Below are positions 20,644 to 39,811 of a stretch of 46,765 nt of DNA, one piece after another. This DNA is from Okeania sp. SIO1I7. Lineage in GTDB: Bacteria; Cyanobacteriota; Cyanobacteriia; Cyanobacteriales; Microcoleaceae. How positions within the stretch are numbered: the first letter of the stretch is position 1; every line of letters begins with the position of its first letter. The stretch covers positions 1 through 46,765 of the forward strand of contig JAAHGF010000029.1 of the NCBI GenBank assembly GCA_010672585.1, in the 5' to 3' direction. Below the pieces are notes generated by a model. It was not told the DNA's origin. It ran no database searches and was given only the letters and a program-made list of their open reading frames with translations. The position numbers and the translations under genes were made by a program.

Positions 20644-21444
20644 ATGATGATTAAATCCGATAAATTTGATAAAAATATATTCAAACTAATTCAAGTTATT
20701 TTACCTGAATTAATCGGTTTTCTAGGATTTATAACTATATGGCAAATACTAGCAATGCACTATAGTTCAATTATTCTACCTTCTCCTCTAGAAACTCTAG
20801 TTGCTCTGAAAAACTTGGCAACGGCAAATAAATTAACTTTGGCTATTTTAACTACTACTTTAAATGCCATTAGTGGTTTCACAATAGCAACATTAATTGG
20901 CAGTTTCCTCGGAATAATAGCTGGTATAAAACCTTTGATTAGTCGAGCGGTCAGACCTCTAATTACTGCTTTGCAAGGAGTACCACCTATTGCTTGGATT
21001 GTAATTGCATTACTTTGGTTTGGCACTGGTAATTCTACTTCAATATTTACCGTTGCTGTTGCTACTTTACCAATTATTTTTATTGGCGCTGTGGAAGGTG
21101 TGAGAAATATCAATTCACAGCTAATCGAAATGGCTTTTACTTTTAAAATCCCCATCAAAAATTTATTATTAGACTTATATTATCCACATTTATTATCAAG
21201 TTTATTTCCTTCAATAACATCTGGATTAGGATTAGCTTGGCGAGTGGCAATAATGTCTGAATTATTATCATCAGAAACAGGTATTGGTGCAGAAATGAAT
21301 CTAGCTAGAATTAATCTCGATACAGCGGAAGTAATGGCATGGGTGGTTGTAACAGTGGTATTAATTTTGATATCTGAATATTTAGTTATTCGCCCTATCC
21401 GTAGATTTTTAGAACCTTGGAATTATGGTGAAAAAAATAAGTAG
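20644..21444 (+). CDS. ABC transporter permease (NitT/TauT/SsuC type)
   Basis: The protein of about 266 residues starts at one of two adjacent ATGs (20644, 20647); the frame is open further upstream only through heptamer repeat. There are six hydrophobic segments, starting LPELIGFLGFITIWQILAMH. The membrane-permease signature TLPIIFIGAVEGVRNIN and the EAA-like loop (EMAFTFKIPIKNLLLDLYYP) that contacts the ATPase are present. It belongs to the permeases of nitrate, taurine and alkanesulfonate importers; the true substrate is not readable. Its ATPase (24211) and binding protein (25463) lie 2.8 and 4.0 kb downstream, separated by an opposing chromate transporter gene, so the original operon appears to have been split. 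Confidence 0.85.
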   Translation: MMIKSDKFDKNIFKLIQVILPELIGFLGFITIWQILAMHYSSIILPSPLETLVALKNLATANKLTLAILTTTLNAISGFTIATLIGSFLGIIAGIKPLISRAVRPLITALQGVPPIAWIVIALLWFGTGNSTSIFTVAVATLPIIFIGAVEGVRNINSQLIEMAFTFKIPIKNLLLDLYYPHLLSSLFPSITSGLGLAWRVAIMSELLSSETGIGAEMNLARINLDTAEVMAWVVVTVVLILISEYLVIRPIRRFLEPWNYGEKNK

Positions 21445-29087: not shown

Positions 29088-31067
29088 TTAATCAGGAGAA
29101 GACCAAGAACGAACCTCACCCATAGTCACCGGAATTAAATCGCTAACATCAATAGTAAACTGGAATACCTTCTTCGCTCGACGATTATTTTCAGGGTCAA
29201 AAAACTTCAACTTCACATCCCAACAATCACTATCCATCCTACAGAATGGACTCTTAGTCACCGCAATACTATCCAACTCCATGCCAGCATAAACCGCTTG
29301 AGAAAAAGTTAGAGCCGCTTGGAAAGCATTAGTAGCAGCAAAATTCAACGCCCGGTCTTGAGAAGTTTGCCCCAAGTTGCGTAAATCGTAATAAACTCGA
29401 TTGAGGAAACTACTCAAACTCCTCCGCATTTGATCATCGTCAGCTTCTGCTTGTTCTCCACGGACTGCTGTTAAAGCCGAATTCACTAAAGTATTAATCC
29501 GCCAGCCATAAAGACCACGAGGACTAACAGGCTCAACCACAGGCACCACTTGCCCTGAAAATAACCTCACTGTACGCCCAGTTAGTCGTCCGGGAATACT
29601 CACACGCTCAATATACTCCTCAGAATCTTCTGGTTCCACTTCCCCTGATAGCAACTGCTGAAAAGCTTCATAAACATCCCGCGCAAATGACCCCGAAGGT
29701 TCAAGAGCGTAGATGGGAGTTAACTCCATATTCAAAGTCCAAGTCAGAGACTTAGCTTCTGAAAGGTTAGCTGCCAAATAGTCCACCATCTGGCGTGCAT
29801 CATAAGGGTTAGCTGGAATTTGGGTATTTTCAATAGTAACCGCTGGCATCAACTGTTTAAATGAGTCGCGTCTAGCTTCTGTTCCGAAGTCATAACCCAA
29901 TGTACCAATAACGTAAACTATAGAACCCATTTCTTGAGGGGGTTGACTGGCAGTTATTCCATTTGTATGATTATTTGGCATAGAAGAAATTTGACTATCT
30001 GATGTATTAGTTGTTGATAATGGTTGTGAGGCAATGACACTAGCTTCAATGGTACCAGCAGCTACCACGCCAGTGTCCGATGGAATTTCATGATTATTTT
30101 CTGGACTAGCTGAGGCTTGCAGGCTCACTTCTGGAGTTGACCCACAACCACAACCACTAGCTTCAATACTACTATTTTGCTGTTCTGATTCTGACATAGT
30201 TTCTCCGGTTAAATGTGCAACAGCACCTGAAATATTGAGCTGACCTACTAAACAACGACCTGTGTCTTCACTAAGACACGGAATGGCTGTCTCGAGCAAG
30301 GCAGTACGGACTTTTTGTGGGTCCAATTGTTTTTCCCTCTGCAACTGTAGAGCCATCAGTAATGCTGCCACTCCTGATACTACTGGCGTTGCAAAGCTAG
30401 TCCCACTTAATTGTATTGTACCGCCTTCTGGTTGAGCGCCTAAAATATTTTCTCCCAAGGCAAGAATACCCTGAGTTTGATAAGTCTGACCCCAGTTACT
30501 ATAATCTAGAGGTTGTCCGTTTTCTCCCATTGCCCCTACTGCCAATACAGCAGGAAGTGCTGCGGGAATGTGCAAGCATTCACAGCCATCATTACCTACA
30601 GCAGCAATAAGCAAAACGTTATTGTCTCGGCACAAATTTACCGCATGGTTAAGCCAGTCTTCAGCTTCACCATCGTCTGTCAACTCGCCTCCACTTATAT
30701 TAATAATATTTGCTCCTGCATTCACAGCTTGTTCGATCGCCCGTGCCAAGTCTAGTTGAGAAACTCGGTGACGAGAGTCTGAGAAAATAGGAACAATTAA
30801 CCCTCGACAGTGGGGGGCAATACCCGAGACAGAAGATTCTGGCTGGCCGAAAATTATACTAGCAACATGAGTACCATGGACGGACATTTGCTCTGTAGGA
30901 CTAGCTTCGCCCTCCACCAAGGTTAGTAGTTGGGTCAAGTTGGCTCCTGCAAAACAGGGATGCTTGAGGTCAACTAAACCGTCAAGCACTGCCACGCAAA
31001 CCTCAGAGTTACCTTTGGTTTTTGCCCATAGTTGTTTGATTCCTGGAATATTAGCGATTTCGGGCAT
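29088..31067 (-). CDS. Cyanobactin-type maturation protease, PatA-like
   Basis: The 659-residue protein starts at an ATG with a subtilisin-type domain (residues about 1-275). Asp29 sits in VAVLDGLVD, His64 in HGTHVAS, oxyanion Asn159 in AAVGND and Ser224 in LSGTSFATPVVSG, so the triad is complete. A 110-residue linker rich in Ser, Thr and Gly follows (with a CGCG motif near 305). The C-terminal domain (about residue 385 onward) has YVIGTLGYDFGTEARRDSFK, ANPYDARQMVDYLAANL, RVYYDLRNLG and the CWDVKLKFFDPENNRRAKK segment that mark the PatA/PatG family. PatA cleaves the leader from cyanobactin precursors. Asp and His are 35 residues apart, without the PatG insertion, so I call it A-like. It is transcribed with the PatG-like gene. 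Confidence 0.85.
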   Translation of the reverse strand: MPEIANIPGIKQLWAKTKGNSEVCVAVLDGLVDLKHPCFAGANLTQLLTLVEGEASPTEQMSVHGTHVASIIFGQPESSVSGIAPHCRGLIVPIFSDSRHRVSQLDLARAIEQAVNAGANIINISGGELTDDGEAEDWLNHAVNLCRDNNVLLIAAVGNDGCECLHIPAALPAVLAVGAMGENGQPLDYSNWGQTYQTQGILALGENILGAQPEGGTIQLSGTSFATPVVSGVAALLMALQLQREKQLDPQKVRTALLETAIPCLSEDTGRCLVGQLNISGAVAHLTGETMSESEQQNSSIEASGCGCGSTPEVSLQASASPENNHEIPSDTGVVAAGTIEASVIASQPLSTTNTSDSQISSMPNNHTNGITASQPPQEMGSIVYVIGTLGYDFGTEARRDSFKQLMPAVTIENTQIPANPYDARQMVDYLAANLSEAKSLTWTLNMELTPIYALEPSGSFARDVYEAFQQLLSGEVEPEDSEEYIERVSIPGRLTGRTVRLFSGQVVPVVEPVSPRGLYGWRINTLVNSALTAVRGEQAEADDDQMRRSLSSFLNRVYYDLRNLGQTSQDRALNFAATNAFQAALTFSQAVYAGMELDSIAVTKSPFCRMDSDCWDVKLKFFDPENNRRAKKVFQFTIDVSDLIPVTMGEVRSWSSPD

Positions 31068-31142
31068 CTTTAAAAATAAGTCAAAAGTTAAAAGTCAAAA
31101 TTAAACAAGGCAGGAGGCAGAAGGCAGGAGGCAGGAGGAGAT

Positions 31143-31493
31143 TCAGGACTTCAATTTATTAAGGGTAGATACTAAAATGCCTTGTAGACTCTCTACTTCT
31201 GCTAAAACCCCAGTAAATTCTTCTCCTTGAGCTAGTTTAACTTCTTGAGCTATGATTAACAAAGTATCTAATTCTCTGAGAGAACCCAGGGCTATGTGAA
31301 GAAACTGAATATATTCGTTTTTCGTTTTTCTACCATAACCTTCAGCAATATTGGCCGGAACAGAAACTGAAGCTCTTCTAATTTGGTTAGTTAACCCATA
31401 TAATTCTGACTTAGGAAAATTTTCAGTCAACTGATAACAATGAACAGACAGTTGAATTCCTCGTTTCCAAATAAATTGCTCTCGGTAGCTCAT
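31143..31493 (-). CDS. Four-helix-bundle protein (S23/IVP family)
   Basis: The ATG at 31493 (MSYREQFIWKRGIQL) gives 116 residues; the frame is open further upstream only through a heptamer repeat (LLPPASCLLPPS). The sequence matches the small four-helix-bundle family: YGLTNQIRRASVSVPANIAEGYGRK, then EYIQFLHIALGSLRELDTLL. The family includes proteins encoded in 23S rRNA intervening sequences and is related to the Avd accessory protein of diversity-generating retroelements; most members are stand-alone with unknown function. No reverse transcriptase or template/variable repeat is present. A paralog of about 60% identity lies at 36743-37096, and both sit beside heptamer runs. Confidence 0.85.
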   Translation of the reverse strand: MSYREQFIWKRGIQLSVHCYQLTENFPKSELYGLTNQIRRASVSVPANIAEGYGRKTKNEYIQFLHIALGSLRELDTLLIIAQEVKLAQGEEFTGVLAEVESLQGILVSTLNKLKS

Positions 31494-31822
31494 ATCAAAT
31501 CCGGTTGAATATTTACACTTTGGAGGAAGGAAGGCAGAAGGAGGCAGGAGGCAGGAGGCAGGAGGCAGGAGGGAAAATTGCTTATGGATAGTCTTCGACA
31601 AGCCGCTCCGCGTCTACTCACTCCAAACAATTTTGAACACCGTGTAGACGGTGGGGTTTCTTATAACACTCCGAAGCAAGAGGATTTGATATAATATCAT
31701 GTCCAGATAAGAGCGTGATCAAAAAACCTTTTCCCTCCTGCCCCCTGCCCCCTGCCTCCTGCCTCCTGCCCCCTGCCCCCTGCCTCCTGCCTCCTGCCCC
31801 CTGCCTCCTGCCTCCTGCCTTC
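31494..31822. repeat. GGCAGGA/CCTGCCT heptamer region with hairpin repeat
   Basis: GGAGGCAGGAGGCAGGAGG (31530-31572), an inverted hairpin-repeat copy (about 31611-31671, CACCGTGTAGACGGTG), an ATATCATGTCCAGATAAGAG piece (31693), then CCTGCCCCCTGCCTCCTGCC runs (31737-31820) up to the stop of the PatG-like gene. No gene is visible. Confidence 0.8.
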
Positions 31823-33976
31823 TCACTCCGAAACAGACCAAGACCGCACTTTACCCAATGTTACAGGCATCAAATCAGACACATCAATAGTAAAACGATA
31901 TACTTTTTTTGCTCTCCTAGTGTTGTCTGGATTAAAAAACTTGAGCTTCACATCCCAACAGTTGCTATTGTAACGACAGAAAGGACTTTTTTCTACTTCT
32001 ATACTGTGCAACTCCATACCAACTGCTACTGCTTCAGAAATAGAAGCTGTTGCTTGAAAAGCATTTGTCGCAGCAAAGTTAATAGCGCGATCGCGGTCTG
32101 CTCGTCCCAAATTGCGGAGGTCATAATAAACCCGTTGCAGAAAACTTCTGAGAGATTTTCGTATTGCTTCCTCCTCCGCTTCTTCTCGCTCTGCACTTAC
32201 TGATGTGAGGGCACTATCAATCAGCATATTCACTGTCCAACCATACATTCCTCTGGGACTATATATTTTTACCACAGGTAGAGTTTGCCCAGAAAATAAT
32301 TTCACAGTTTCGTCACTCAACCTACCAGTGATGCTGACCCTTTCGATGTAACCTTCATTGTCTTCTGCCTCAACCTGTCCTGATAACATATTTTGCAGAG
32401 TTTCATAAATATCCTCGGCAAATGCGCCTACAGGTTGGAGAACATAAATAGGAGTTAATTCTATATTTAATGTCCAGATTAAAGATTTGGCTTCATATAA
32501 ATTAGTCTCTAGATAATCTACCATTTGGCTGGCATCATAAGGGTTTGCAGGAGCTTGAACTCCTGAAATAACTGTTGCTGGCATCAACTGTTTAAATGAA
32601 TCGCGCCGTGCTTCTGTGCCAAAATCATAACCCACTGTCCCCAAAGCATAAATTTTGTTGGAAGTAGCACTGGGAATAATACCATTAGTAGGTTGAGCGA
32701 TCGTTGTTGGGTCGTTACCTTTTTCTGTTGAGTTTAATACCTTGCCTTCTACAGGGTCATTGGTTGGGGTTTGATTCCCCATCAACTCTTTACTCCTTTC
32801 TTCTTCAATGACTTTTAACCCTGATGAGGCAGTAATATTTGTTTGAGTATTTGTCAGCTTTTCCCCACTGTCTCCCACTTTGAGAGAAAGAGGTGATATA
32901 GTATTTTCCTGTGCAGCAACTACAGATACTTCATCTCTAACATCTTCTGATATTACCTCTGCCGTAGAAACTTCCACTACTGCTAACTGCTTTCCTGTCA
33001 AAAGTTGAAAAGCTCCGGCAACATTTAGTTTACCTAACATACAGCGTTCGACTTCTTCAGTATCTTCCAAAGTACAGGGAATGGCACTATTTGTTAATGC
33101 TGCTCGTATTGCTTCTGCATCTGGAGTTGCTCCTTGCTGCAATTGCAAACTCATTAGAAGTGCTGAAATACCCGTTACCATTGGTGCGGCACAACTGGTA
33201 CCTTTATTGCGAACAGTTTCTTCTGTTCCCGGTTGAGCACCAAGAATATTTTCTCCGGGAGCAATAATACCTTGTTTTTGATACTGCCCACCCCAGTTAC
33301 TAAACTTGAATATTTGACCATTATCTTTCATTGCCCCTACCGACATTACTCCAGGCAAGATAGCGGGAAGACACCAACATTCGCCTTTATTGTTTCCAGT
33401 CGGAGCGACGATTAAAATATTATTTTCTAGAGCTTGACGTACTGCTTTTTCCAATAGTTCGTGAGCAACGCCAGTTTTGCTAGGGCGGCACGCAGCACAG
33501 TGAATAATATTTGCCCCTAAATCTACGGCCAGGTTAATGGCACGAGCTAAGTTTATAGGATCGACGTAGTAGTCATTACCATAACCTATAGGAATATTAA
33601 TGCCCCGACATTTGTAAGCAATACCTTCAACGGGAGTACCTGGTTGTCCGAAAATGTTACTAAAAACATGGGTGGCGTGGAAAGCTGCCCCAAGGACTTC
33701 TCTGGTGAGTTTGTCTGGGATAGCTTCTTTTAGTTTTGTCTCTGTTACCTCATTCTTTTGATCCAAATTTTGGATTTCTCGGAAGATGTCTATATATTTG
33801 GGGTCGAATTCTAGTGGTTGTTGCCAATAAGGGTTGATTTTTGTGACGTTAGCTCCTTGAAAGCAACCTCGGTCTAGATCGGCAGCTCCATCTAGGAGAG
33901 CTACAGTAATGCGAGGGTCGCCTCTGGTGTGTGTCCACAGTTCGTTTAGCCCAGGGATATCTGCAAAATCTGGCAC
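31823..33976 (-). CDS. Cyanobactin-type maturation protease, PatG-like (macrocyclase candidate)
   Basis: The 717-residue protein starts at GTG (33976); a stop lies four codons upstream. Its subtilisin domain has Asp29 (VALLDGAAD), His100 (FHATHVFSN, Ala replacing the usual Gly), Asn195 (VAPTGNN) and Ser261 (KGTSCAAPMVTG). Asp and His are 71 residues apart because of a charged helical insertion at about residues 50-97. Prochloron PatG has about 70 residues between Asp548 and His618 because of its macrocyclisation insertion, and the A-like neighbour has only 35, so this is the G-like partner. PatG's oxidase domain is absent. The tail (YALGTVGYDFGTEARRDSFK onward) is the PatA/PatG domain. Residues about 398-418 of the linker are a translated hairpin repeat. 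Confidence 0.82.
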   Translation of the reverse strand: MPDFADIPGLNELWTHTRGDPRITVALLDGAADLDRGCFQGANVTKINPYWQQPLEFDPKYIDIFREIQNLDQKNEVTETKLKEAIPDKLTREVLGAAFHATHVFSNIFGQPGTPVEGIAYKCRGINIPIGYGNDYYVDPINLARAINLAVDLGANIIHCAACRPSKTGVAHELLEKAVRQALENNILIVAPTGNNKGECWCLPAILPGVMSVGAMKDNGQIFKFSNWGGQYQKQGIIAPGENILGAQPGTEETVRNKGTSCAAPMVTGISALLMSLQLQQGATPDAEAIRAALTNSAIPCTLEDTEEVERCMLGKLNVAGAFQLLTGKQLAVVEVSTAEVISEDVRDEVSVVAAQENTISPLSLKVGDSGEKLTNTQTNITASSGLKVIEEERSKELMGNQTPTNDPVEGKVLNSTEKGNDPTTIAQPTNGIIPSATSNKIYALGTVGYDFGTEARRDSFKQLMPATVISGVQAPANPYDASQMVDYLETNLYEAKSLIWTLNIELTPIYVLQPVGAFAEDIYETLQNMLSGQVEAEDNEGYIERVSITGRLSDETVKLFSGQTLPVVKIYSPRGMYGWTVNMLIDSALTSVSAEREEAEEEAIRKSLRSFLQRVYYDLRNLGRADRDRAINFAATNAFQATASISEAVAVGMELHSIEVEKSPFCRYNSNCWDVKLKFFNPDNTRRAKKVYRFTIDVSDLMPVTLGKVRSWSVSE
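32731..32792 (-). repeat. Hairpin repeat copy inside the PatG-like gene
   Basis: GAGTTTAATACC, TTCTACAGGGT, then GGGGTTTGATTCCCCATC match the intergenic copy at 24089. On the coding strand it reads MGNQTPTNDPVEGKVLNSTE, parallel to METNFKDLVDRGVLNSKE in the CPBP protease. Confidence 0.75.
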
Positions 33977-34637
33977 AATTTCAAGTTAATTTTTAATTAT
34001 ATCTTCAGACTGAGTATACACCTAAATATATACTTGAGAATATTCTTGGGAAAAAAATTTAACAAAAAATAGCGAGAAGTCCCGCGTTCTCTTGCAAGGG
34101 AACGTCGTATGGGAAAGCGACCATGTTATAATATATAAGAACACAGGGGGAGGGCATCACCTCTGTATAAACTGCAACTCCGCGTGCGGGTTGAAGAATC
34201 CCGCGTTGTCGCGCCATGCGCAACGTCGGGAGTATGTCAATAATTGTCGCCCTGATTCTATTGCTGTTAACATTATAATTGTTAAAAAGCATTTCGGTCT
34301 GGAATGCTCCGCTTTCAGTCGATCAACCTTTAGAAGTCAGCGCGAGCGCGTTTGCGGAGTATTCCGGTACGGAAAGGGGATACGCGACCCCTCCTAAAAT
34401 TAAATGACAAGCTAGTGCTGCTACGCGGAAGTCAAAAGTCAAAATTTAAAAGTCAATCATTTTTGATTGGTAAGGCTTTTAGGATTTTGTAACTGGTTAG
34501 TTATTTCTGCTATCCTGCACTAGAAGTCGAGGATTTAAACCCAAGCTTTTAGCACGCTGAAAGCTGTTTGCGGAGCATTCCGGTACGGAAAATGCTGATA
34601 GCTAGTTAAATTGAACCTATAGTAAGGAATCATAAAT
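33977..34637. other. Divergent region between PatG-like and PatB-like genes
   Basis: It contains an IS200/IS605-like end fragment (34071-34240) and an inverted pair TTTCGGTCTGGAATGCTCCG (34288) and GCGGAGTATTCCGGTACGGA (34353). A second TTGCGGAGCATTCCGGTACG copy lies at 34569. No precursor peptide is visible: I looked for an LAELSEE-like leader and an AYDG-type end and saw none. Confidence 0.65.
34071..34240 (+). mobile_element. IS200/IS605-like end pair without transposase (miniature element)
   Basis: About 170 bp bounded by two related hairpins. The left is TCCCGCGTTCTCTTGCAAGG-GAACGTCG; the right is TCCCGCGTTGTC, GCGCCATGC, GCAACGTCGGGA. It ends GTATGTCAA. Between them lies GGGGGAGGGCATCACCTCTG, CCGCGTGCGGGTTGAAGAAT. 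The layout resembles the right-end and omega-RNA region of cyanobacterial IS605-family TnpB elements. No TnpA or TnpB is encoded. It is more GC-rich than its surroundings. Confidence 0.55.
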
Positions 34638-34835
34638 ATGAGATTACCGAAACAAACACCTCCAGTGAAAAGACCCGATCTGATTTCTCCCAGTCTAGCA
34701 GTAGATGTGGTTCATGGTCGCGGTGAAGATCTAGTAAGAATTCGTATGGACTTGATGCATGGGGCTAATTATAACGATCCAGCTCCCTATAATTATCCGA
34801 CTTATAATCAGATCAAGTTCTCTGGTTGGGGCTAA
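34638..34835 (+). CDS. Cyanobactin cluster small protein, PatB-like
   Basis: The 65-residue protein reads MRLPKQTPPVKRPDLISPSL, AVDVVHGRGEDLVRIRMDL, then MHGANYNDPAPYNYPTYNQI. The opening RLPxQxPPVxRPDL, the DVVHG-ED motif and the aromatic-rich end agree with my recollection of the PatB/AcyB/McaB family, a conserved partner in cyanobactin gene clusters whose function is unknown. It is small, soluble and without a signal peptide. AAGGA lies 10 nt before the ATG. It is divergent from the two proteases and followed by the PatC-like gene. Without a database search the family call rests on motif memory and context. Confidence 0.7.
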   Translation: MRLPKQTPPVKRPDLISPSLAVDVVHGRGEDLVRIRMDLMHGANYNDPAPYNYPTYNQIKFSGWG

Positions 34836-35132
34836 TAACTGTTGCCCATAATCTGGTATAATCGTGTGATAATCTCTAATTATCTGTTTGATGATACTAG
34901 GATTTAAGACTGAGTTGCATCCCACAAATCAGCGGTTTCTAAGAACGGTCGTTGAGAGTCATTTGCTCCTGTATAGTTGGGCGATCGCTAATCTTGAAAA
35001 AATTTATAATAGACCTCTTGCAAAAGTGTTAATTAAATTAATTCAAGATCTCAAATAAACAATTTCATTCCCCTATTCCCTATTCCCTGACTTCTGCAAG
35101 AAGTTTAATGTTGTTAAATAATAAGGATAATT
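34836..35132. other. Gap between PatB-like and PatC-like genes
   Basis: No precursor peptide or other gene is visible. It includes a GGTATAATCGTGTGATAAT stretch, one GCGATCGC site, and CCTATTCCCTATTCCCTGA heptamers flanked by CCTCTTGCAAAAG and CTTCTGCAAGAAG. Confidence 0.6.
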
Positions 35133-35321
35133 ATGTCAGAGCAAACATCTCAAGCTTCTCAAAATTTCAGTGACAGCGAAAAACAAGATATATCTGAGCA
35201 AGAACAAAAATCTATGATGCTGGCAACTGGTTTGGAAGACTACGCACGTTGGAAAATTATGTTCAAAGACCATAAGAGGGAAGACAGTCCATCTTTCCGT
35301 CGCGGACGCATTTGGGCTTGA
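35133..35321 (+). CDS. Cyanobactin cluster small protein, PatC-like
   Basis: The 62-residue acidic protein has a low-complexity N-terminal half (SEQTSQASQNFSDSEKQD) and a conserved-looking C-terminal half, MLATGLEDYARWKIMFKDH and SFRRGRIWA. The ATGLEDY-W core and FRRGRIW end fit the PatC/TenC family of small cyanobactin-cluster proteins, whose role is unknown. It has no CAAX, AYDG or LAELSEE-like elements, so it is not a precursor peptide. AAGGA precedes the ATG by 6 nt. Context (two PatA/PatG-type proteases and a PatB-like gene nearby) supports the call. Confidence 0.65.
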   Translation: MSEQTSQASQNFSDSEKQDISEQEQKSMMLATGLEDYARWKIMFKDHKREDSPSFRRGRIWA

Positions 35322-36742: not shown

Positions 36743-37096
36743 TTATGCTTCTAATTTACGAATAGTAGCTATAATAAGACGTTGTAGTTCATCAACTTCT
36801 TGAATGATAGAATTAAATAGTTCTGGTTTAGCTAAATTTACTGCTTTAGCAATAATTAATTGGGTATCTAACTCTCTGAGAGAACCTAGAGCAATTCTGA
36901 GAAAACGTATATATTCAACTTTACTTGTTCTGCCATATCCTTCAGCAATATTTGAGGGAACTGAAACACAACTACGACGAATTTGACTCGTTAAACCGTA
37001 AAGTTCAGAAGTGGGAAAATGTTGAGTTATTTTGTAGCAGTTAATAGCCATTTTAACACCTCTTTTCCATATATATTGTTCTCGATGACTACCCAT
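36743..37096 (-). CDS. Four-helix-bundle protein (S23/IVP family), second copy
   Basis: The 117-residue protein MGSHREQYIWKRGVKM... is a clear paralog of the one at 31143-31493: YGLTSQIRRSCVSVPSNIAE, then EYIRFLRIALGSLRELDTQL. Four amphipathic helices make up nearly the whole chain. The ATG start is natural here without extension. It is convergent with the unknown 294-residue gene and separated from it by heptamers. No rRNA gene, reverse transcriptase or variable repeat accompanies it, so neither an IVS nor a retroelement role is supported. Confidence 0.85.
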   Translation of the reverse strand: MGSHREQYIWKRGVKMAINCYKITQHFPTSELYGLTSQIRRSCVSVPSNIAEGYGRTSKVEYIRFLRIALGSLRELDTQLIIAKAVNLAKPELFNSIIQEVDELQRLIIATIRKLEA

Positions 37097-37482: not shown

Positions 37483-38115
37483 ATGTTTTTTCACGAACAA
37501 CTTTACCGCAGTCCAGAAATTATGACAAAGCTAAAAAATTTGTCAATAACTATTTGTGGTGCAGGTGCTTTAGGAGCAAATATTACTGAAAATTTAGCTC
37601 GTTCTGGGTTTAATAAATTACGGGTTATAGATTGCGATCGCATTGAAGAGTGTAACCTATCTACTCAACCTTATTATCGTTCTGATGTAGGAGCTTTTAA
37701 GGTGAAAATTTTGACTAATAGTCTCTATCGTGCTTTAGGAGTAAAAATTGATGGTCAATCTCAAAAATTAACTGAAGAAAATACAGGTAAACTATTAGGA
37801 AAAAGTGAGTTAGTGATTGACACTTTTGATAATAGTATTAGTCGGAGTGCTGTGAAAGATTATTGTGCCGACGCTAATATTTCTTGTCTTCATGTAGGGT
37901 TAGCTTCTGATTATTCAGAGATAATTTGGAATGAAAATTATCGAGTACCTTCTCCAGTAAATGATGATATTTGTGATTATCCATTAGCGAGAAATTTAGT
38001 AATGTTAACTGTTGCTGTTGCTTGTGAAGTTGTGGTGAATTTTGCAGCGACTAAACAGCAGGATAATTTTACTGTGACTTTAGGAGATTTTGCTGTTAGG
38101 TCTATAGATTTTTAG
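37483..38115 (+). CDS. ThiF/E1-like adenylyltransferase-fold protein
   Basis: The 210-residue protein carries the E1/ThiF/MoeB nucleotide fold: ITICGAGALGANITENLARS (glycine motif at 26-31), then VIDCDRIEECNLSTQPYY with the Asp and the N-LS-Q pattern that bind ATP-Mg, a lysine-containing KVKILTNSLYRALG helix, and VIDTFDNSISRSAVKDYC. These residues support ATP-dependent activation of a carboxyl terminus. It is shorter than MoeB or ThiF, lacks the CxxC zinc pairs, and ends soon after the NFTVTLGDF strand. A possible catalytic cysteine is in NDDICDYP. The ATG at 37483 is preferred over 37522. No ubiquitin-like, E2-like or JAB protein is apparent nearby. It lies 67 bp before the ATPase-TOPRIM gene in the same direction. 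Confidence 0.8.
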   Translation: MFFHEQLYRSPEIMTKLKNLSITICGAGALGANITENLARSGFNKLRVIDCDRIEECNLSTQPYYRSDVGAFKVKILTNSLYRALGVKIDGQSQKLTEENTGKLLGKSELVIDTFDNSISRSAVKDYCADANISCLHVGLASDYSEIIWNENYRVPSPVNDDICDYPLARNLVMLTVAVACEVVVNFAATKQQDNFTVTLGDFAVRSIDF

Positions 38116-38182
38116 AATTAGAAAATTTGCTAACATTTTAATAATTAGGAATTTACCTAACTTTTATATTAATAAAATAGAA

Positions 38183-39811
38183 ATGTTGAACAAAAAGTTA
38201 ATATTTCCACCTAGAAAAGGAAAAAGTGAAAATGAGCCTTTAGAATGCTCTGAAGCAGTTGTAATTATAGGAGCTAATGGTTCTGGTAAGAGTAGACTTG
38301 GTCGTTGGATAGAGGAACATCAAGAAAGTTCTCAAGTGGTTCACAGAATTTCCGCCCAAAAAAATTTAGATTTTTCTGAGTATGTGTCTCTTACAAGTAT
38401 GGAAAAAGCTATCAATGAGGTATTATTTGGTATTAGTACCATACCTCAAGGCTGGGGAGAATTGCAAACAAAGAGAACACAACGATGGAAAGCTATTAAT
38501 AGACCAGAGTTAAGTGTTGCATCTATGCTTGATGATTATGATAAAGTGCTTTCTCTTCTTTTTGCAAAAGAAAATAATCGAAATAGTGAATATGTCCATC
38601 TAGTAAGAGAAATGCAGAACAAAGGAAATTATCAAACTCCGACAATTTCTGACTCTCCTATTGATGTAATACAGCGTATTTGGAAAGATATTCTACCTCA
38701 TAGAAAACTTGTGATTGAAAATGATAAGGTTACTGCTGCTATTTCAAATAGTGATACTTATCATGGTCGAGAAATGAGTGATGGAGAAAGAGTTGCTTTA
38801 TACTTAATGGCTCAATGTTTATGCGTACCAAATGACTCTATTTTAATTATAGATGAGCCAGAAATTCATCTTCATAAGTCGTTAATGAATAAGCTTTGGT
38901 CAGAAATAGAAGCAGCACAACCTACTTGTCTATTTATTTATATAACCCACGATCTTGACTTTGCTGCCTCTAGAATAGGAGCTAAAAAAATATTAGTTAA
39001 AAGCTATGACGGTCAACAATGGGATTGGGATGAAGTACCAAAAAGTGAAAATTTACCAGAACCAGTACTTCTTGAAATTTTAGGAAGTAGAAAAAAAATT
39101 GTTTTTGTTGAGGGTGATAAAGGCAGCTTAGATTGTAAGATTTATTCGGCAATATATCCAAATTATTTAATAGTGCCTCGTGGAGGTTGTGATAAGGTGA
39201 TTGAGTCAACAAAAGCAATGCGAAAGAATTCAGCATTTCATCACATCAAGGCTTTTGGTGTTATTGATATGGACTATAGAACTGAAGATGAAATAAAAGC
39301 TCTCAAAAAATCTGCCATAGAGCTTTTGAAGGTTGCTGAAGTTGAGAATATTTTATGTGTACCTGAACTACTAGAAATTGTTGCAAATAATCAAGGATTC
39401 GACTATAAGAAAATTTATCAGCAAGTTTTAGATTTTGTCATAAATAAAATTTCAGAAAATTTAGAAGATCAATGCTCGAAGCGTTCATCTGCTGAGATAG
39501 AATTCAAATTAAATATGTTTAATACAAAGGCAAAGGGAAAAGACCAATTATCTGTAGCCTTAAAGGATCTTTGTGATTCCATTGATGTCAGCAAAATCTA
39601 TGATAAAAACTTGGAAATATATAATCAAATAATTCAAGAAAAAGATTATAAAAAAGCATTATTTTATTACAATAACAAAGGATTATCTAAAGAAATTTCA
39701 AAGTTTTTTGATTTGCGTGATTATAGTAATCATATTATTAGGCTTTTATCTACTGAAAATAGGGAAAAAATTATCTCAGCGTTAAAACAATATGCTCCAA
39801 TACTAGATTAG
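38183..39811 (+). CDS. AAA ATPase fused to TOPRIM/DUF4435 domain (PARIS/OLD-like)
   Basis: The 542-residue protein has an ABC/SMC-like ATPase at residues about 1-290. Walker A is GANGSGKSRLGR (Lys36), a signature-like segment is GREMSDGERVALYLMAQ, and Walker B is ILIIDEPEIHLHKS (Asp224, Glu225) followed by the histidine switch ITHDLDFA. The C-terminal part (about 300-540) is a TOPRIM domain of the DUF4435 type: IVFVEGDKGSLDCKIY (Glu310), PRGGCDKVIESTKAM, FGVIDMDYRTEDE (Asp362, Asp364) and VENILCVPELLEIV. The metal-binding residues are all present. This architecture resembles the PARIS anti-phage system (AriA ATPase with AriB DUF4435 nuclease), which also exists as a single fused gene, and more loosely OLD nucleases. 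A defence role is inferred from family. Confidence 0.82.
   Translation: MLNKKLIFPPRKGKSENEPLECSEAVVIIGANGSGKSRLGRWIEEHQESSQVVHRISAQKNLDFSEYVSLTSMEKAINEVLFGISTIPQGWGELQTKRTQRWKAINRPELSVASMLDDYDKVLSLLFAKENNRNSEYVHLVREMQNKGNYQTPTISDSPIDVIQRIWKDILPHRKLVIENDKVTAAISNSDTYHGREMSDGERVALYLMAQCLCVPNDSILIIDEPEIHLHKSLMNKLWSEIEAAQPTCLFIYITHDLDFAASRIGAKKILVKSYDGQQWDWDEVPKSENLPEPVLLEILGSRKKIVFVEGDKGSLDCKIYSAIYPNYLIVPRGGCDKVIESTKAMRKNSAFHHIKAFGVIDMDYRTEDEIKALKKSAIELLKVAEVENILCVPELLEIVANNQGFDYKKIYQQVLDFVINKISENLEDQCSKRSSAEIEFKLNMFNTKAKGKDQLSVALKDLCDSIDVSKIYDKNLEIYNQIIQEKDYKKALFYYNNKGLSKEISKFFDLRDYSNHIIRLLSTENREKIISALKQYAPILD

Follow-up and report, generated by a model that had tools for sequence, protein, structure and literature searches.

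The window, a stretch of 46,765 bases at the start of the 104,580 base contig C32 (JAAHGF010000029.1, bases 1–46765) of Okeania sp. SIO1I7, contains a cyanobactin cassette that is real, intact and unusual. The A, G, B and C genes are all present together, as in a cyanobactin cluster, and the YcaO gene (D) and a precursor gene (E) are on a different contig, C23, with a second precursor gene on contig C28. It is probable, at about 0.7, that these genes make up a working trichamide-type cyanobactin pathway acting from unlinked loci, as judged from their sequences, and function in trans is likely on the same grounds. This is supported directly by the gene families, the open reading frames (ORFs), the separate positions of the loci, the layout across the genus and joint decay in one genome. 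The pathway is of a known kind in a dispersed form. The source genome is 9.48 Mb in 109 contigs and is 99.99% complete.

The A, G, B and C genes

Both protease genes are open ORFs on the minus strand. The PatA-type N-terminal protease (A; 29088–31067) has 659 amino acids and the PatG-type macrocyclase (G; 31823–33976) has 717. Each carries Peptidase_S8, PatG_D and PatG_C domains and scores above the TIGR03895 cut-off of 421 bits, at 954 bits for A and 891 bits for G. The catalytic residues are D29, H64 and S224 in A and D29, H100 and S261 in G, with Asp-His spacings of 35 and 71. The sequence-only reading had described two tandem subtilisin-type proteases with full triads and PatA/PatG tails, one of them with a long Asp-His insertion, and these observations hold. 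Alignment to the PatA and PatG structures, which had been proposed as a check, gives 4h6w, 'N-terminal cyanobactin protease', as the best PDB match of A (443 bits) and the PatG macrocyclase entries 4h6x (350 bits) and 4aks (347 bits) as the best matches of G. The macrocyclisation insert of these entries aligns to the long Asp-His interval of G (residues 30–99; 33680–33889, minus strand). G starts at the subtilase domain, with no oxidase domain present in the domain search. In a tree made by a quick method, A is in the PatA clade and G in the PatG clade, each beside its Okeania and Trichodesmium counterparts. By profile score, S8 triad and PatG_D/PatG_C domains the two are members of the PatA/PatG family, and the pair comprises an A-type protein and a G-type protein that carries the insert; the earlier caution that both might fall outside this family did not materialise.

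Divergent from the proteases, on the plus strand, are two small genes that had been likened to PatB and PatC. Both assignments stand, PatB (34638–34835; 65 amino acids) matching TIGR04220 at 118.5 bits (cut-off 55) and PatC (35133–35321; 62 amino acids) matching TIGR04447 at 45 bits (cut-off 30).

Location of the D and E genes

Profile searches of the genome gave two YcaO matches and two TIGR03678 precursor matches, every one off C32. No YcaO, precursor or prenyltransferase gene was found on the whole of C32 (104.6 kb). PatB is the sole match of the leader-pattern scan within the window, and the remaining C32 pieces gave none; the tail-pattern scan matched one short unrelated frame, at 21159. 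The lack of D, E and F near the cassette, noted at the outset for the window, extends across C32, with none of the three recognised past the window edge on that contig. The genome-wide search that had been recommended places YcaO genes on C17 and C23 and precursor genes on C23 and C28. Neither D nor E is in the cluster; D23 and E23 are on C23 and E28 is on C28. Of the explanations offered earlier, this supports the one in which precursor genes at other genomic sites supply the pathway.

The C23 YcaO protein, D23, is a PatD-like cyclodehydratase and the precursor E23 is adjacent to it. E23 has 61 residues, MAKKNLMPQQKEPVIR...GIAPQ GARRNRPYRC SYDGDAD, and the last residue of its core, directly before SYDG, is Cys; known D and G proteins act on sites of this sort. 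At least 29 kb of flank on C32 and 65 kb on C23 separate the two halves. D23 and the C17 YcaO, D17, are both fused leader-binding and cyclodehydratase proteins (TIGR03882 and TIGR03604), with identities to D of the contiguous Trichodesmium locus of 81% and 43%, respectively. D17 was rejected as the partner; it is 43% identical to D23, its three neighbours have no NCBIfam match, and it is whole in the Okeania genome in which D23 has decayed (G291, below). The second precursor, E28, stands alone on C28, is of the piricyclamide type and ends ...FAGDDAE. E23 and E28 score 31.4 and 26.6 bits with TIGR03678, under its cut-off of 39.6; E28 is above the cut-off of the PirE (anacyclamide/piricyclamide) model TIGR04446, at 46.1 bits against 35.

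From these features we infer how the pathway would run, where its precursor would be cut, what it would make and that it is expressed. The window would provide the protease half (A, G, B and C) and C23 the unlinked half (D and E). D23, bound to the E23 leader, would turn the C-terminal Cys of the GARRNRPYRC core into a thiazoline, which would become a thiazole if an oxidase acts on it. A would then cut E23 after GIAPQ, and G would cut before SYDGDAD and close the ring. LynF/TruF-type prenylation would not be expected. The same A and G may process the C28 precursor (..FAGDDAE) too.

D17 (C17:5840–11482) is present in all five genomes of the source genus and adjoins two divergent genes ending PPYPYLPMSCC and PPYPYLPLSTCT. 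Upstream of D23 on C23 is a long simple-repeat array (L005:18163–20000, L006:1–835) with open frames of YLEWQNIWNGK and RYFPFQIF, which adds length to the beginning of the D23 frame.

Comparison with other Okeania genomes

The source genus, here Okeania g1, is represented by five genomes (G000, the source; G250; G291; G292; G293), all with TIGR03895 matches. Okeania SIO3I5 (G285) is in a separate genus in the taxonomy used, and G153 is Trichodesmium. A and G are in tandem in G000 and G250, with A of G250 99.5% identical to that of the window, and in G292 A is 72 kb from G, B and C. In these three genomes D23 with E23, and E28, are on contigs other than the protease contig(s), and in G250 and G292 these are long contigs. 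The dispersed layout is therefore clear in three Okeania genomes including the source, and G293 is compatible with it. G285 has two contigs with pathway genes, the first with A, G, B, an oxidase and precursors and the second with D, C and more precursors.

Ratios of non-synonymous to synonymous substitution (dN/dS) are 0.06–0.20 for A, 0.10–0.28 for G, 0.16–0.19 for D23 and 0.14–0.25 for E23. In G291 the single TIGR03895 match is a remnant of G (residues 141–715, with two stops). A was not found genome-wide, and the 12 kb around G, the only stretch checked for B, showed no sign of it. D23 is a fragment (residues 230–399) and the E23 match covers 44 of its 61 residues; D17 and E28, by contrast, are whole. 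The unlinked halves have thus decayed together in this one case, as expected if both serve one product.

Frequency of separated D and E genes

A TIGR03895 search of 291 genomes of the order gave a match in 86. D and E were searched in 80 of the 86 and F in 54 of the 80. The six left out of the counts (G150, G151, G178, G263, G272 and G280) were picked among the less complete genomes, although G225 (88%) and G258 (89%) were kept and G151 (89%) was not. With G071, which has no listed coordinate, and 37 genomes without two listed matches within 20 kb removed, 42 genomes have a pair, meaning two TIGR03895 matches within 20 kb, for most of which no A or G type was assigned. G037 and G060, apparently near-copies of each other, are counted separately.

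Among the 42, D (TIGR03604, E 1e-20) is within 25 kb of the pair in 16, elsewhere in 13 and nowhere in 13. Lack of a nearby D is therefore common. The premise that clusters usually keep D is at odds with the 13 genomes without it and with excerpts of a 2015 review, in which D is found only in heterocycle-forming cyanobactin pathways (PMC4663559). The companion premise, that F is often close by, fares no better; the trichamide pathway is without the F prenyltransferase in the same excerpts, and no TIGR04445 match to a LynF/TruF-type prenyltransferase was found in G000, G250, G153 or G285. TIGR04445 matches (E 1e-5) occur in 31 of the 54 searched genomes with PatA-family proteases, 28 of them above the cut-off. 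A requirement for D or F nearby was rejected on the genome counts and on these parts of PMC4663559.

E is within 25 kb in 28 of the 42 pair genomes by TIGR03678 and in 35 after motif scans, which revealed an E close to the proteases for half of the 14 genomes initially scored as lacking one (7 genomes: G091, G104, G166, G170, G253, G269 and G279). TIGR03678 misses divergent leaders, so the count from this profile alone overstated distant E. In the 7 pair genomes that remain without a nearby E, one was recognised elsewhere in G000 and G250 only; neither TIGR03678 nor the motif scan recognised E in G093, G110, G229, G241 or G262. G279 has one E beside A and G and other E genes 1.2 Mb away on the same contig. 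Of 54 A-clade loci in named genomes, 23 with at least 8 kb on both flanks were judged, the others being not centred (17), short in flank (7) or outside the hmmsearch set (7). Neither D nor E is present in 2 of the 23, and 9 have no E by a pattern that misses some precursors.

Relationship to known cyanobactin systems

Across the whole source genome there are orthologues of the trichamide A, G, B, C and D genes and an E with a YDG-type tail, this E being assigned by its leader and tail only. The A, G, B, C and D proteins of the Trichodesmium (G153) locus are 82, 78, 86, 50 and 81% identical to those of the source. Like the source, G153 has an E with a similar leader and YDG-type tail, no LynF/TruF-type prenyltransferase and a G without an oxidase domain. 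Its A, G, B, C, D and E genes and a separate SagB-type oxidase are in one locus, whereas the A, G, B, C, D and E genes of the source are split over C32, C23 and C28. A lysyl-tRNA synthetase gene is beside the SagB-type oxidase. The G153 core (L035), GDGLHPRLCSC, which we take to be the published trichamide sequence, has 11 residues and two Cys, whereas the source core, GARRNRPYRC, has one Cys. E23 and the Trichodesmium E share frame and motifs, not the core. L035 fits the review's description of tri as having an 11-residue core, two Cys, a separate oxidase and a tRNA synthetase gene (PMC4663559, excerpt).

The anacyclamide and piricyclamide systems likewise have A, G, B and C, and E28 passes their PirE model. 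In the excerpts of the review acy is without D, and E and F are in the cluster (PMC4663559), whereas C28 has E28 without the other genes and the search for F in the source gave no match. The A genes of tri and pir have been placed in one clade (PMC3877893, excerpt). The protease and macrocyclase logic, PatB, PatC and the YDG-type tail are common to the patellamide system and the source, the differences being that the patellamide genes are described as one operon with F and that PatG there has an oxidase domain (PMC4259220 and PMC4663559, both in excerpt); in the source no F was found and G has no oxidase domain.

No scattered cyanobactin pathway and no solo PatA-like system is described in the titles and abstract openings searched, a coverage outside which most subscription journals lie. 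A search for complete clusters would score the window locus as broken, for want of E and D, and its product would be missed. A working pathway would mean that linkage between cyanobactin enzymes and their substrates is dispensable, and that incomplete A/G loci are best matched to orphan precursors across the whole genome. It would also be a natural case of the two halves of a ribosomally synthesised and post-translationally modified peptide pathway evolving at separate sites.

Alternative explanations

Several observations weigh against a working dispersed pathway. The joint decay is from one draft genome, G291, of 720 contigs, and E28 is whole there despite no A being found, so that E28 may not depend on the A/G pair. 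The core of E23 hardly varies across four genomes, whereas cyanobactin cores are usually variable. The likeness of E23 to the Trichodesmium E is in leader, tail and TIGR03678 score only, and tblastn of E23 against the Trichodesmium locus gave no match above 40 bits. The SagB-type oxidase of that locus has no match in the fetched Okeania g1 loci, the whole source genome not having been searched for it. PatC is weakly constrained, with dN/dS of 0.6–1.6 in the three pairs where it is computable. The contigs of G293 are short and A, G and D23 are cut by their ends, therefore G293 alone does not show separation.

The survival of E28 in G291 also bears on the idea that the A/G pair chiefly matures E28, or unseen precursors, into a heterocycle-free ring, with D and E of C23 used otherwise or unused. 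In its favour are E28 itself, whole in all five Okeania g1 genomes and passing the PirE model, an FAGDDAE end that resembles precursors of D-less loci, and the 13 of 42 pair genomes without D. It is unlikely, in that E28 survives in G291 with A not found and G broken, while D23 and E23 have decayed along with the proteases, and D23 is under purifying selection. The C23 precursor, with its core ending in Cys and its gene beside D, does not call for the earlier suggestion of a substrate made without heterocycles, which is possible for the C28 precursor.

Rearrangement might instead have split a cluster whose genes are now being lost. A Nodularia spumigena cluster without a precursor was concluded to be such a decaying relic (PMC3610870, excerpt), decay is advanced in G291, and the interval between A and G differs between the source strain and G250. 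This is improbable for the source, given that frames are open in G000, G250 and G292 and that A, G, D23 and E23 all have dN/dS far under 1; the same layout in several species suggests persistence. Decay of the cluster, which the sequence-only reading had listed among its options, is thus unsupported here (open ORFs, dN/dS 0.06–0.28), and it has occurred in one congener. A misassembly that makes an unbroken cluster look split is very improbable. The genomes are drafts, and A and G are at contig ends in G293, but the flanks of at least 29 kb and 65 kb given above, and the agreement of the G250 and G292 assemblies, speak for genuine separation. The trichamide-type pathway acting from unlinked loci is preferred over each of these.

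PatB, the shared leader motif and solo PatA-like proteases

The N-terminus of PatB, MRLPKQTPPVKRP, has the LPxQxxPVxR motif of cyanobactin precursor leaders (motif scans and an alignment of 47 sequences). PatB is 95–100% identical across four Okeania genomes. Its structure prediction is poor, with a predicted local distance difference test score (pLDDT) of 67, a predicted template modelling score (pTM) of 0.33 and a single helix of note. Over 86 loci, LPxQxxPVxR occurs 128 times at up to 5 kb from a PatA-family protease (1.016 Mb in all) and 6 times farther away (0.544 Mb); the loci were chosen around proteases and include precursors and PatB, so the count is an enrichment and not proof of recognition. 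It is conceivable, if doubtful, that A, G, B and C are a trans-acting service for two precursor families (trichamide-type on C23 and piricyclamide-type on C28), that the system is united by the LPxQxxPVxR N-terminus common to precursors, PatB and the peptides of solo PatA-like loci instead of by gene linkage, that LPxQxxPVxR is an address read by a PatA-family protease or its C-terminal domain, and that PatB is a leader-bearing peptide rather than an enzyme. The C-terminal domain of PatG did not bind PatE by nuclear magnetic resonance (PMC4259220, excerpt), which counts against direct reading of the motif by this domain. The shared motif is a handle on the role of PatB and on the C-terminal domain of PatA and PatG.

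The source has a third, solo PatA-like protease (C33:431711–433864; L019:9711–11864) with adjacent small ORFs (L019:7897–9658). Four small ORFs with LPxQxxPVxR follow the protease, one of them PatB-like. This protease belongs to a solo PatA-like clade, made up of 14 rows that come from 13 loci, with a Shimodaira–Hasegawa-like approximate likelihood ratio test (SH-aLRT) value of 99, that is placed next to the PatA clade (support 86) in a quick tree with long branches flagged. The clade spans Duganella (L141) and Thiotrichaceae (L142). All 13 loci have at least one small LPxQxxPVxR ORF within 5 kb and one family protease ORF per fetched stretch. In six of them (L111, L114, L120, L141, L162 and L166) one of the peptides contains G[VI]EAS, a fit to the reported PatA cleavage consensus G(L/V)E(A/P)S (PMC10885120, excerpt), and after it a core that is hydrophobic and looks amphipathic. 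The source's own solo-locus peptides have GIGAS or GVDPS in place of G[VI]EAS. In Okeania SIO3I5 (L128:11976–12893; L033), a solo PatA-like protease adjoins a tandem array of four ORFs that resemble precursors, MNLPIQSQPINR...GILASCCPGGKQCYGLCIFGTCTGVCA; part of one of the four is masked.

Seven Actinomycetota contigs (L124, L126, L127, L129, L131, L135 and L139) have two proteases of the PatA/PatG family together with a D homologue, an ORF like PatB and a stretch that resembles an oxidase. Two of these contigs are titled Bifidobacterium breve and cluster with Nanopelagicales, and are perhaps misnamed bins. According to the 2015 review, clusters of this kind were known from no group other than cyanobacteria (PMC4663559, excerpt).

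Four-helix-bundle and neighbouring genes

A four-helix-bundle gene between G and A (31143–31601, minus strand) had been listed with the cassette. Its presence is borne out by a TIGR02436 profile match; its membership is not. The interval 31073–31831 does not align to G250, which matches at about 99% on both flanks, and no ORF like it is between A and G in G250 or in the fetched G285 and G153 loci. The A–G interval of G250 is a different sequence without that ORF, and the gene was rejected as a cassette part. By sequence comparison it is an insertion without a counterpart in the relatives compared, outside the cassette. A second TIGR02436 four-helix gene, at 36743–37096 of the window, is 61% identical to the copy between A and G and is present in G250 too. 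Beyond it, at 37483–39811, are a gene for a ThiF-family protein of 210 amino acids and then a 542 amino acid ORF that is ATPase-like, as judged by eye.

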